Shown here: positions 33,874-36,946 of the stretch, piece after piece | Layout of the letters: every line of letters begins with the position of its first letter | How positions within the stretch are numbered: position 1 is the stretch's first letter | Assembly: GCF_003025005.1 (NCBI RefSeq) | Contig: NZ_PVSS01000002.1 | Location: 204,091-268,090 of the forward strand | DNA: 64,000 nucleotides | Direction: 5' to 3' | DNA from: Brumimicrobium mesophilum | Lineage (GTDB): Bacteria; Bacteroidota; Bacteroidia; Flavobacteriales_D; Crocinitomicaceae | The notes under the pieces: generated by a model | Told to the model about the DNA's origin: nothing | The model's database searches: none | Seen by the model: only the letters and a program-made list of their open reading frames with translations | Made by a program: the position numbers and the translations under genes

Positions 33874-34551
33874 TTAATGACCCTGTAAAGGTTCATCCAA
33901 CAGATAATAGTCAATAAATTCACGGACGCAACCTCGACCTCCTTTACTATTCAAAACTAAATCTACTTGTGCCTTTACAATAGGAACTGCATCTGATGGC
34001 GCAGCAGAAAAACCAACACTTTTCATCACGCCCATATCATTGATGTCGTCGCCTATAATTCCAACTTCTGACAAATCAATTTTCAAATTTTCACACCACC
34101 CTTTAAGAATATCGATTTTTAGATCTCTTCCAACATAGAGGTGTTCAATTTTCAAAAGTTCTGCTCTTGCTTTCACCATTTCCAGCTTAAAACCAGAAGA
34201 AATAATTCCTACAGCAATACCTATTTTTTTCAAGGCCATAATTGCCATTCCGTCTTTGGCATTGTATTTCTTTATTTGATCTCCGTTTTCAGTAAAAAAC
34301 ATTCCAGCGTCAGTCATAACACCATCTACATCCAAAATAAGTAATTTGATTTGCTTTGCTTTTTTAAGATCGACAGTCATATTATAAGAAAGTAAATTGG
34401 TTAAATCTACTTCATTTCTGTAGCAAAAAAGTTCGAGGGAACCTAAAGTCAATTTCTCGACTTTAGACACCTCGTTTTCTTTTAAAAATTGTGCTAAACT
34501 GCTATTATTCTTAATTAAAACAGCCTCTAAATTTTTGGATAATAATTTCAT
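33874..34551 (-). CDS. KdsC-like HAD phosphatase with N-terminal HTH-like segment
   Basis: The 225-residue protein has a C-terminal KdsC-type HAD phosphatase domain (about 67-225): D74 and D76 in LDVDGVMTD, D100 in AKDGMA, S118/S119 in IISSG, GDDIND (167-172) and GGRGCVRE. KdsC removes phosphate from KDO-8-phosphate; usual length is about 170-190. The extra 60 residues (LSKNLEA, then LAQFL, KVEKLTLGSLELFCYR, VDLTNLL) resemble an XRE helix-turn-helix with a shortened recognition region; compare LSKNIKHL and PIDIII in the LexA-like protein at 861. It is the last gene of a coupled run after a DAHPS-like gene. The real substrate may be another 3-deoxy-ulosonate phosphate. Confidence 0.85.
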   Translation of the reverse strand: MKLLSKNLEAVLIKNNSSLAQFLKENEVSKVEKLTLGSLELFCYRNEVDLTNLLSYNMTVDLKKAKQIKLLILDVDGVMTDAGMFFTENGDQIKKYNAKDGMAIMALKKIGIAVGIISSGFKLEMVKARAELLKIEHLYVGRDLKIDILKGWCENLKIDLSEVGIIGDDINDMGVMKSVGFSAAPSDAVPIVKAQVDLVLNSKGGRGCVREFIDYYLLDEPLQGH

Positions 34552-35549
34552 TATACGATGTTATAACCTACACTATTTGCAACAGGTTCGATTGCTGATT
34601 TCAAAGATTTAAATTGGTCATGAGTGAGTTGTTGAGCAGCATCTGACTTTGCAACCGAAGGATTTGGATGAGCTTCAATAATTAACCCATCAACTCCCAT
34701 CGCAACACAAGCTTTCGCTAATCTTTCAACTCCATAACGGTAACCTAAAGCGTGACTTGGATCTAAAACAATTGGTAAATTTGTATATTCTTGCAAGTAT
34801 GCAACTCCACAAAGGTCAAGTGTAAATCTCGTATTTGTTTCGAATGTTCTGATTCCACGTTCACATAAAATAACTTGATCATTTCCTCCTGCAAGAATAA
34901 ATTCAGCCGCTTGAACAAACTCCTGAAGTGTGGAACCAAATCCACGTTTTAAAAGAACTGGTTTATTAATTTTGGCACAAGCTCGTAAAATCCCTTGATC
35001 ATACATAGCTTTTGCACCAATTTGAATGATATCACTGTGTTCGATAACTTCATCAATATGTGTTGCATCTCTCACCTCGGTAATCACACTTAAACCATGC
35101 TCTTCTCGCATTTGAGCAAGTAATTTCAATCCTTCAAGACCTAATCCTTGAAAACTATATGGAGAAGTCCTAGGTTTATAACATCCTCCACGTAAAGTTG
35201 TCAACCCCATAGACTTGATCATCTTTGCACTTTCTTGAATTTGCTCCAAAGATTCCACAGAACAAGGTCCACCTATAAGAATTGTGTTTTTTGAATTCCC
35301 TCCTATTGTCAAATCACCGATTTTTACCTCACGTGTTTCCTTTTGGAACTCACGAGATGACAATTGCATATCATTAGCAAAAACCCAGTCCTGATCAACT
35401 TTGTCCGTAATAGATGATGGCACTTCTTTCAATGAAGAAGATGTAATTAAATGTTCACTTCCTTTATAAGTGATGTGAAAAGCTTTGTGCTCCTCTGCTA
35501 ATTTTGCAGCATCTGCACTATTTACTGATGAATTTAATTTTAAAATCAT
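34551..35549 (-). CDS. DAHP-synthase family protein (type I beta), altered active-site motif
   Basis: The 332-residue protein has an N-terminal ferredoxin-like regulatory region (about 1-75) and a TIM barrel of the AroA(I-beta)/Thermotoga type. Metal ligands match: C96 in GGPCSVE, H266 in DPSHA, E292 in IEAHP and D303. The PEP/sugar motif KPRTSPYSFQG (125-135) is the DAHPS form, not the KDO8P-synthase form. The usual GARN motif reads GAKAM (178-182), with Lys in place of the PEP-phosphate-binding Arg. It overlaps the upstream Rpe-CBS gene by 4 nt and the KdsC-like gene by 1 nt. It may make DAHP for aromatics or a different 3-deoxy-ulosonate phosphate. Confidence 0.87.
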   Translation of the reverse strand: MILKLNSSVNSADAAKLAEEHKAFHITYKGSEHLITSSSLKEVPSSITDKVDQDWVFANDMQLSSREFQKETREVKIGDLTIGGNSKNTILIGGPCSVESLEQIQESAKMIKSMGLTTLRGGCYKPRTSPYSFQGLGLEGLKLLAQMREEHGLSVITEVRDATHIDEVIEHSDIIQIGAKAMYDQGILRACAKINKPVLLKRGFGSTLQEFVQAAEFILAGGNDQVILCERGIRTFETNTRFTLDLCGVAYLQEYTNLPIVLDPSHALGYRYGVERLAKACVAMGVDGLIIEAHPNPSVAKSDAAQQLTHDQFKSLKSAIEPVANSVGYNIV

Positions 35550-36547
35550 ATTTCTCCTTTAATTAAGTTAACAAAGGTAACAATTCCCTCTGCTTTTTTA
35601 TTCTTGTTGATTACTGGCAAATACATTACCGGAAAACTCTTTTCTCGTACTAAATGTAGCATTTCATCCACGTTTGCTTCTGAATCGATTGTGATTGGAT
35701 TACTGTTGACCATTTCTTTAACATGTAATCCAGGAATATTTTCAAAGTTATCAATCAAAGCTTTCCTCACATCTGCATTTGAAATAATCCCTTCGAAATT
35801 TTCATTTTTCTCAACCAAAGTAAATCCTTGCTTTCCATTGTCGATAGCCTCAAGAACTTCTTTAAAAGTCATTGTTTCAAAATCAACAACTGGGCATTCT
35901 TCTATTGGAATCATGAAATCTTTAATCATGAATCTAGATTGAATAGCACGTTTTGTTAAATCCATCAACGCGTGACCAACACTTGCACCTTTAAACAAAA
36001 AACTTCCAGAAACAGAAGAATGAACTCCCATATTTCTCAGAATGAATGAAACTTCTCCATTTACTCCACCATCAACATGGACGTTTTTATTGGGATACTT
36101 CTTTTTGAATGCTCTTATTTTTCTAAAATTTTCAGGATCAAAAACACCTCCACTTTGTCCAGGAATTGTTGCCATGAATAGTACAAAATCAAAAGAGCTA
36201 TAATCATCGAAGGCAGCCACAGGAGTTGGTGTAATTAAGGCTAAACCTTTTTCACCCTTGATATCTTCAGGAATTTCCAGTTTTTCTGACAATTGTTCAA
36301 ATTGAAAAGTCACATACTCCACAGGTTGTTTTCTTAACAAATCGAAGTATTTTTCTGGGCTTTCAGTAATGATGTGCAAATCAATCGGCATATCACACCA
36401 AGTTCTAATTTTCGCAATGTCATCAAAAACACTCACATCATCATTACAATCTACATGTAACAAATCAACTTGATGTGCTTCAAGGTCCAGAATAGTTTCT
36501 TTAAGCGTACGATTTTTATCAGAGTAAATAGATCCTGAAATTTTCAT
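35546..36547 (-). CDS. Rpe-like pentose-phosphate epimerase fused to a CBS pair
   Basis: The 333-residue protein has an N-terminal ribulose-5-phosphate 3-epimerase-type barrel (about 1-205) with all expected metal ligands: H31 and D33 (LLHVDCND), H58 (IDLHII) and D159 (VDGGVN). FMATIPGQSGG matches the Rpe loop. Two CBS domains follow (about 208-333), which usually bind adenine nucleotides. The expected reaction is Ru5P to Xu5P, with the CBS pair as a regulator. Isomerase-CBS layout recalls KdsD of the KDO pathway, which uses a SIS fold instead. It lies 4 nt after a lipoprotein gene and overlaps the DAHPS-like gene by 4 nt. Confidence 0.85.
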   Translation of the reverse strand: MKISGSIYSDKNRTLKETILDLEAHQVDLLHVDCNDDVSVFDDIAKIRTWCDMPIDLHIITESPEKYFDLLRKQPVEYVTFQFEQLSEKLEIPEDIKGEKGLALITPTPVAAFDDYSSFDFVLFMATIPGQSGGVFDPENFRKIRAFKKKYPNKNVHVDGGVNGEVSFILRNMGVHSSVSGSFLFKGASVGHALMDLTKRAIQSRFMIKDFMIPIEECPVVDFETMTFKEVLEAIDNGKQGFTLVEKNENFEGIISNADVRKALIDNFENIPGLHVKEMVNSNPITIDSEANVDEMLHLVREKSFPVMYLPVINKNKKAEGIVTFVNLIKGEI

Positions 36548-36551
36548 ATAA

Positions 36552-36932
36552 TTATCTTTTTATTATTGGTCGAAAGGTATTGTCAGTAATCAAAATATTC
36601 ACTTCTTCAATAAAAACTTCCTTCTTAAGGTCCCTTTCTAAATCTTGTAATAATGCTTCCTCTTGAATGGTGAATGCATCTTTGTGGTACAATTCACGTT
36701 CGATAAGTTTAACTGTTATAGCATTATCTTCCCTTTCCAATTGAATAACTTGCTTTTTATCACCGATAAAGCCATTGTTTTTCCAATATCGCGCAAAGCT
36801 TATTGCTTTATCTTTATTAACCCCTTCAAGAAAATAAACACTTAAGTTTCCATTATCAATTCGATCTCCCATGGAGATTCCGCAAGCTTGAAAAAGAAAG
36901 ACAACCAAGAATATAACAATCCAATTTCTCAT
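36552..36932 (-). CDS. Small lipoprotein, unknown
   Basis: The product (126 residues from the ATG at 36932) has a lipobox (FLFQAC, Cys about 17) and a short mature domain with alternating charged and hydrophobic stretches (DKAISFARYWKNNGF, KEVFIEEVNILITDN). I recognise no family. A TTG three codons upstream extends the frame, but the -7 box TATTTTTG (36946-36939) lies 6 nt before the ATG, so the ATG is preferred. It precedes the Rpe-CBS gene by 4 nt and is first in that operon. Confidence 0.8.
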   Translation of the reverse strand: MRNWIVIFLVVFLFQACGISMGDRIDNGNLSVYFLEGVNKDKAISFARYWKNNGFIGDKKQVIQLEREDNAITVKLIERELYHKDAFTIQEEALLQDLERDLKKEVFIEEVNILITDNTFRPIIKR

Positions 36933-36938
36933 GATGTT

Positions 36939-36946
36939 CAAAAATA
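36939..36946 (-). promoter_or_regulatory. -7 box just before the operon's first ATG
   Basis: TATTTTTG (minus strand) is a perfect TAnnTTTG box ending 6 nt before the ATG of the lipoprotein at 36932. It leads the lipoprotein / Rpe-CBS / DAHPS-like / KdsC-like run. No clear -33 TTG is visible. Confidence 0.5.

Follow-up and report, generated by a model that had tools for sequence, protein, structure and literature searches.

The window, 64,000 nucleotides from the genome of Brumimicrobium mesophilum (positions 204,091 to 268,090 of contig NZ_PVSS01000002.1), carries on its minus strand a run of three genes that may bear on the supply of 3-deoxy-D-manno-octulosonate (KDO), the sugar through which lipid A is joined to the remainder of the outer-membrane lipopolysaccharide (LPS). 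They encode a barrel of the ribulose-phosphate 3-epimerase (Rpe) type joined to a CBS pair (Rpe-CBS), a synthase resembling 3-deoxy-D-arabino-heptulosonate 7-phosphate (DAHP) synthase (DAHPS), and a KdsC-like phosphatase. I refer to the three genes together as the triad. Codes beginning with G, L, f and g stand for genomes, loci, families and genera; G000 is the genome of the window and f1 is Crocinitomicaceae. The features of the triad are these:

35546-36547, minus strand: Rpe-CBS gene, an open reading frame (ORF) of 333 aa
35948-36547, minus strand: Rpe-type (beta/alpha)8 barrel, residues 1-200 of Rpe-CBS (PF00834, aligned catalytic residues, AlphaFold2 (AF2) model)
35549-35929, minus strand: CBS pair, residues 207-333 of Rpe-CBS (structural and profile matches)
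34551-35549, minus strand: DAHPS-like synthase gene, 332 aa (PF00793, TIGR01361; KPRTS motif)
33874-34551, minus strand: KdsC-like phosphatase gene, 225 aa (TIGR01670; tree placement)
34360-34551, minus strand: N-terminal extension of the KdsC-like protein, about 64 residues

The original prediction, made from the letters of the window, described three coupled genes overlapping by 4 and 1 nt, and the ORF coordinates bear this out: Rpe-CBS and the synthase share 35546-35549, and the synthase and the KdsC-like gene share position 34551. The identities it gave to the three products agree with the Pfam and NCBIfam domain scores, and its comparison of a CBS-linked sugar enzyme, an aldol-type synthase using phosphoenolpyruvate (PEP) and a phosphatase with the logic of KdsD, KdsA and KdsC holds as well. 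The nearest named loci are those of Brumimicrobium, with Rpe-CBS proteins 86-91% identical, and the 4-nt overlap is repeated in the fetched loci apart from L009, L023, L029 and L077.

The first protein matches Ribul_P_3_epim (PF00834) with 80.4 bits and has two CBS stretches besides. Its AF2 model has a pLDDT of 90.7, and the best 36 PDB matches are Rpe. Barrel and catalytic residues are common to this protein and ribulose-phosphate 3-epimerase or D-allulose 6-phosphate 3-epimerase: residues S9, H34, D36, H68, M139, D177, G199 and S200 of E. coli Rpe are kept in all 21 aligned Rpe-CBS sequences, so that the metal and acid/base residues (the catalytic Ser, His, Asp, His and Asp) are invariant. 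It differs from plain Rpe, which is a separate gene in G000, in the added CBS pair, in a shorter beta2-alpha2 loop, in PGQSGG or PGESGG where Rpe has PGFGGQ, and in falling under the TIGR01163 equivalog cut-off (70.7 against 212.6 bits). The other comparison is with KdsD (KpsF/GutQ), likewise a first-step sugar-phosphate enzyme with a C-terminal CBS pair. The best match to the CBS pair, by Foldseek and by family-profile search, comes from a putative arabinose 5-phosphate isomerase (its CBS pair, 4o9k), and the KpsF model TIGR00393 covers just the CBS part of Rpe-CBS. The catalytic domain of KdsD, however, is SIS, whereas that of Rpe-CBS is the Rpe barrel.

The second protein scores 231.2 bits against DAHP_synth_1 (PF00793) and 328.9 against TIGR01361, type-Ib DAHP synthase, where the cut-off is 267.75. 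With KdsA it shares a superfamily, an aldol-type reaction with PEP and a slot in the pathway, but it falls far below the cut-off of the KdsA model TIGR01362 (121.7 against 314 bits), shows the motif KPRTS in place of the KANRS of most KdsA compared, and by alignment lacks the long L7 loop of KdsA. A passage of PMC6650799 ties that loop to arabinose 5-phosphate binding, and is inconsistent on which class needs the loop more. Nor is the synthase a typical type-Ib DAHPS, despite its score and its KPRTS. Nine type-Ib enzymes from aromatic operons form a clade that excludes the triad synthases (support 99/98), as it does their relatives in genomes without Rpe-CBS. The triad synthases differ from that clade at conserved sites, with FQG for FRG and GAK(A/S)MYD for GARNxQN. 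They stand in no aromatic operon, and the aromatic DAHPS of G000, fused to chorismate mutase (G000:C89), lies elsewhere.

The KdsC-like protein passes the KdsC/YrbI model TIGR01670 over residues 68-217 (148.6 bits, cut-off 106.95) and falls below the KdsC equivalog PRK09484 (136.6 against 208). Its N-terminal extension, which to the eye looks like a helix-turn-helix, is found also in f4 genomes that have KdsA, and is missing from G014 and G096. Synthesis of the KDN type was considered for the pair of enzymes and rejected, with Pfam NeuB at 30.3 bits (cut-off 22.1) far under the 231.2 of DAHP_synth_1 and the KdsC-like protein under the cut-off for KDN-9-phosphatase (147 against 180).

Distribution of the triad and of the KDO genes

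The main survey took in 160 genomes of the order, 47 of them from f1. Full-length Rpe-CBS occurs in 51: 45 of the 47 f1 genomes and six others, namely G014, G040, G096 and G102 (f3), G021 (f10) and G032 (f8). The two f1 genomes without it are G145, where a synthase and a KdsC gene stand at a contig edge, and G151, discussed below. Across the phylum, a sample of 326 genomes gave two with the protein at E<=1e-45, both f1. So much for conservation in Bacteroidota, which the original prediction had marked as worth a search. In 50/51 genomes the synthase is no more than 1 kb from Rpe-CBS and shares its strand, and in 49/51 a KdsC-like gene lies within 2.6 kb, the exceptions being G139, with Rpe-CBS 11 kb off, and G082, with the cluster spread across contigs. 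Clustering this regular means that the triad is not a chance arrangement. Among the literature matches listed, none reports the operon.

A further 31 f1 genomes were examined by locus, rather than as whole genomes for Rpe-CBS. Thirty yielded a locus, and Rpe-CBS is visible in 23 of these. The other seven are G185, which has KdsD and KdsA; G177 and G188, where the locus is that of another gene; and G160, G166, G175 and G176, to which I return.

Where Rpe-CBS is present, the ordinary enzymes of KDO supply are absent. SIS-type KdsD, sought with TIGR00393 at E<=1e-30, was found in none of the 51 Rpe-CBS genomes of the survey and in 93 of the other 109; canonical KdsA, sought with TIGR01362, in none of the 51 and in 101 of the 109. 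(The 101 comprise 95 matches over the cut-off and 6 partial ones.) The sole f1 genome of the survey with SIS-type KdsD is G151, and the sole one of the 31 additional genomes with KdsA over the cut-off is G185, where KdsD lies beside it. A second search of 11 triad genomes for SIS isomerases, at E<=0.01, brought up nothing beyond CBS parts and short matches to SIS in proteins of other lengths, which to judge by length are probably GlmS and GmhA. An assembly gap as the cause of the absence is ruled out, for the 11 take in the single-contig genomes G100, G106, G109 and G130, which have the same pattern.

The later steps are mostly kept. KdsB exceeds its cut-off in 48 of the 51 Rpe-CBS genomes, and WaaA-type PF04413 occurs in 58 of 60 f1 genomes; G000 has both. 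A second KdsC-type match is present in 45 of the 47 f1 genomes, G100 and G118 holding the triad KdsC alone. For the genome of the window this completes the picture of standard kds genes that the original prediction had left to be filled in: no KdsD, no KdsA, and a second KdsC-type match. That prediction would have counted against itself a genome lacking a separate kdsC or aromatic DAHPS, with ordinary KDO/DAHP enzymes at the locus; G000 has the second KdsC-type match as well as its DAHPS-chorismate mutase.

KdsB and the exchange of modules

One column of the KdsB alignment, 142, fully separates triad from non-triad among 27 KdsB sequences, a comparison that left out E. coli and classed G145 as triad on the view that its Rpe-CBS would lie past the contig edge. 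Sixty newly fetched sequences follow the same rule, with Ile in all 34 from triad genomes and Val in all 26 others. Overall the count is Ile in 49/49 (G145 together with 48 of the 51 genomes that have Rpe-CBS) and Val in 38/38, the latter a part of the 109 other genomes (29 of the SIS class and 9 of the FSA class described below). Val is found also in G151 and E. coli, and in G010, G028, G022, G035, G063 and G054, which have a relative of the synthase together with KdsA. On the KdsB tree, four switches of module coincide with four switches of residue. Were four changes scattered at random over the branches, the chance of such coincidence would be 4.3e-7 per column and 1.1e-4 over 261 columns. 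In the AF2 model of G000 KdsB the residue (there numbered 141) immediately precedes strand 142-145. This pairs with strand 150-155, which leads into the FSR motif, named in a passage of PMC7717453 as the substrate-binding motif. Residue 142 may touch the sugar. Forty other KdsB columns are invariant across the classes and E. coli.

Rpe-CBS is not the sole candidate stand-in for KdsD. In G004 (f5), KdsA is followed by a gene for a protein of 337 aa, a TAL_FSA barrel joined to a CBS part (L114:2215-3228; FSA, fructose 6-phosphate aldolase), and then by a KdsC-like gene. Such FSA-CBS proteins occur in 9 of the 160 genomes (two are partial; see also L127-L134), none of which has SIS KdsD or Rpe-CBS and eight of which have KdsA. 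The order thus falls into three classes that do not overlap, 93 genomes with KdsD, 51 with Rpe-CBS and 9 with FSA-CBS, leaving seven in no class (G051, G081, G114, G120, G138, G141 and G145). FsaA serves as an arabinose 5-phosphate aldolase in engineered E. coli, according to a passage of PMC9947464, and FSA-CBS is therefore a plausible source of the arabinose 5-phosphate on which KdsA acts. It seems that KdsD has given way to a CBS-linked barrel in the Rpe-CBS and FSA-CBS classes alike.

Genus g13 amounts to a natural exchange experiment between the triad and KdsD-KdsA. G149 has the triad, while G151 (L075, L076) and G185 (L195, L225) have KdsD and KdsA. The KdsC of G151 falls in the triad clade, nearest to that of G149 (support 94/94), and the genes after it match those of G149 in length (406 and 463 aa). 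Its KdsB belongs to the f1 lineage, and its KdsD and KdsA lie on a different contig. The long KdsC of the triad group is found also in five f4 genomes (G003, G015, G023, G030 and G041), all with KdsD and KdsA, and in G051, which has no KdsD match. The exchange within g13 and the shared KdsC indicate that one module can give way to the other while the enzymes after it stay the same.

What the triad may supply

The triad holds up as a conserved arrangement out of the ordinary, and I judge it a new form of 3-deoxy-ulosonate supply. Since KdsD and KdsA are gone from Rpe-CBS genomes while KdsB and WaaA mostly stay, I propose that the triad occupies the KDO slot. It likely replaces the KDO-supply steps of KdsD and KdsA (with that of KdsC) rather than running beside them, and very probably feeds KdsB. 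The original prediction had instead placed it in a pathway parallel to KDO synthesis, which does not accord with the absence of KdsD and KdsA from all 51 genomes and the general retention of KdsB and WaaA. Its suggestion of feeding and draining DAHP found no support in the analysis; its non-KDO 3-deoxy sugar acid gains support, because the KdsB residue tracks the swap.

By this proposal, the pathway would open with Rpe-CBS making an aldose phosphate. Control would fall on this step, where the CBS pair, as in KdsD, probably detects the final CMP-sugar. The DAHPS-like enzyme would join the aldose phosphate to PEP, giving a 3-deoxy-2-ulosonate phosphate, and the KdsC-like phosphatase would release the 3-deoxy-2-ulosonate. 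KdsB would then turn this into a CMP-sugar, from which WaaA would transfer the sugar to lipid A. All these reactions, and the regulation, I infer.

What, then, is the sugar? I lean, tentatively, to an analogue of KDO over KDO itself, because of the KdsB residue, the DAHPS-type motif, and the failure to see KdsA beside Rpe-CBS when it stands beside FSA-CBS in 8/9 genomes. The most likely analogue, I think, is 3-deoxy-D-lyxo-heptulosonate, the simplest fit to an Rpe reaction and a synthase of the tetrose type. Erythrose 4-phosphate is ribulose 5-phosphate minus C1. Epimerisation at C2, in the manner of Rpe, would convert it to threose 4-phosphate, and addition of PEP would follow. The product would have the ring configuration of KDO with one carbon fewer. 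In its fullest form the proposal is that nearly a whole family of marine and freshwater bacteria has replaced the KDO of its LPS by seven-carbon 3-deoxy-D-lyxo-heptulosonic acid. A C2 epimerase descended from Rpe and a DAHP synthase turned to a new use would make it from erythrose 4-phosphate under KdsD-like CBS feedback, and KdsB would be adapted at one pocket residue; that all of this is right is unlikely. Something of the kind has reportedly happened in Shewanella, where 8-amino-KDO (Kdo8N) stands in for KDO and KdsB is specialised. There too a KDO analogue would replace KDO in a bacterial group, but the difference is at C8 of KDO, whereas in the triad it is the first two synthetic enzymes that differ.

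An alternative view, possible though I hold it less readily, keeps the replacement and has ordinary KDO as its product. The Rpe barrel would yield arabinose 5-phosphate, either starting from ribulose 5-phosphate or epimerising ribose 5-phosphate at C2, and the synthase would be a KDO 8-phosphate synthase. Some type-Ib DAHPS, as in Pyrococcus, do accept arabinose 5-phosphate. This would make easy sense of a genus with both modules, where G151 combines KdsD and KdsA with a triad-clade KdsC and the KdsB of its family, of the five f4 genomes where a triad-group KdsC accompanies KdsD and KdsA, and of the 40 KdsB columns unchanged across the classes and E. coli. The other CBS-linked stand-in, moreover, has a barrel of the type credited in the PMC9947464 passage with making arabinose 5-phosphate in engineered E. 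coli. The alternative fits poorly with a KdsB residue that follows the swap, with a synthase that has KPRTS and no long L7 loop, and with KdsA beside Rpe-CBS in 0/51 genomes against 8/9 for FSA-CBS.

It is much harder to credit that the triad serves a separate capsule or exopolysaccharide sugar and sits by coincidence in lineages without KdsD and KdsA. Pairs of synthase and KdsC, and synthases near KDO genes, do exist in genomes with a full KDO set, but the KdsB and WaaA kept in most of the family would then have no known source of substrate, and the five neighbouring genes scanned include no glycan gene. Least probable of all is an ordinary aromatic DAHPS sharing an operon with a stray Rpe and a phosphatase: for all that the synthase passes the TIGR01361 cut-off with its KPRTS motif and that G021 has no second DAHPS-type match, 10 of the 11 triad genomes tested do have one, the triad co-occurs with the absence of KdsD and KdsA, and an ordinary DAHPS operon is rejected on the DAHPS-chorismate mutase of G000 and on the aromatic-operon clade that excludes the triad synthases (99/98), which differ from it at conserved sites.

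Several observations weigh against a replacement by the triad in the form that I prefer. The genomes are related, so a Fisher test of the mutual exclusion overstates their independence, and a sign test on the four pairs of KdsB switches gives p = 0.125, the lowest value attainable. The CBS pair of the window scores better to CbpB (9.6e-9) than to KpsF (2.1e-6) in NCBIfam, a single-sequence search with the CBS pair of one relative puts other CBS proteins first, and a tree of 33 CBS pairs, with long branches, does not resolve descent from KdsD. Six genomes with KdsD and KdsA (G010, G028, G022, G035, G063 and G054) contain a relative of the synthase but no Rpe-CBS, and membership of the synthase group is therefore not bound to the replacement. 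Rpe-CBS does not always adjoin the synthase: besides the 11 kb between them in G139, the synthase and KdsC occur without Rpe-CBS in the stretches examined of G160, G166, G175 and G176 (L220-L223), and the operon is thus split in some genera. G177, an f1 draft of 340 contigs, has the synthase together with a contig-edge fragment resembling canonical KdsA (L197, G177:C196:4-360; 41% to E. coli KdsA over 114 residues), possibly contamination, or else a real exception. The KdsB search gave no match in G021 and G055 and one below the cut-off in G147. G021 (L081), finally, has the triad and only one DAHPS-type enzyme, the triad synthase; it is a draft of 260 contigs, and what it lacks may reflect either an assembly gap or a real exception.

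The relatives of the synthase have arrangements of their own. Those of f10 (L066 and L067, in G010 and G028) are paired with KdsC; those of f3 (L087-L089, in G035, G022 and G063) stand in a run KdsD-KdsA-synthase, with KdsB added in G035 and G022; and that of G054 (L094) stands alone.

The usual view of KDO is of an inner-core sugar shared by nearly all Gram-negative bacteria, made by an unvarying pathway that serves as a drug target. If a family lacks KdsD and KdsA yet keeps KdsB and WaaA, then its KDO comes by another route or its inner core has none. The classes also suggest a rule, with the CBS pair as the constant part and the catalytic barrel preceding it as the variable one (SIS, Rpe, FSA/transaldolase), and KdsB offers one candidate specificity residue.

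A neighbouring gene and some database records

The triad may have a fourth member:

36552-36941, minus strand: small predicted lipoprotein gene, candidate fourth gene of the operon

The gene lies 4 nt upstream of Rpe-CBS in the window, and searches of Pfam and NCBIfam gave no match to its product. In 18 of 66 loci, from several genera, a relative adjoins Rpe-CBS or overlaps it; the set is partly redundant and counts the locus of the window itself. Such a lipoprotein could possibly link the operon to the outer membrane.

Records of metagenome-assembled genomes titled Planktophila, Chryseobacterium gleum, Chitinophaga pinensis and Thalassovita (L036, L040-L042 and L050) have Rpe-CBS of the Crocinitomicaceae type, and it looks as though the titles are wrong or the bins mixed.

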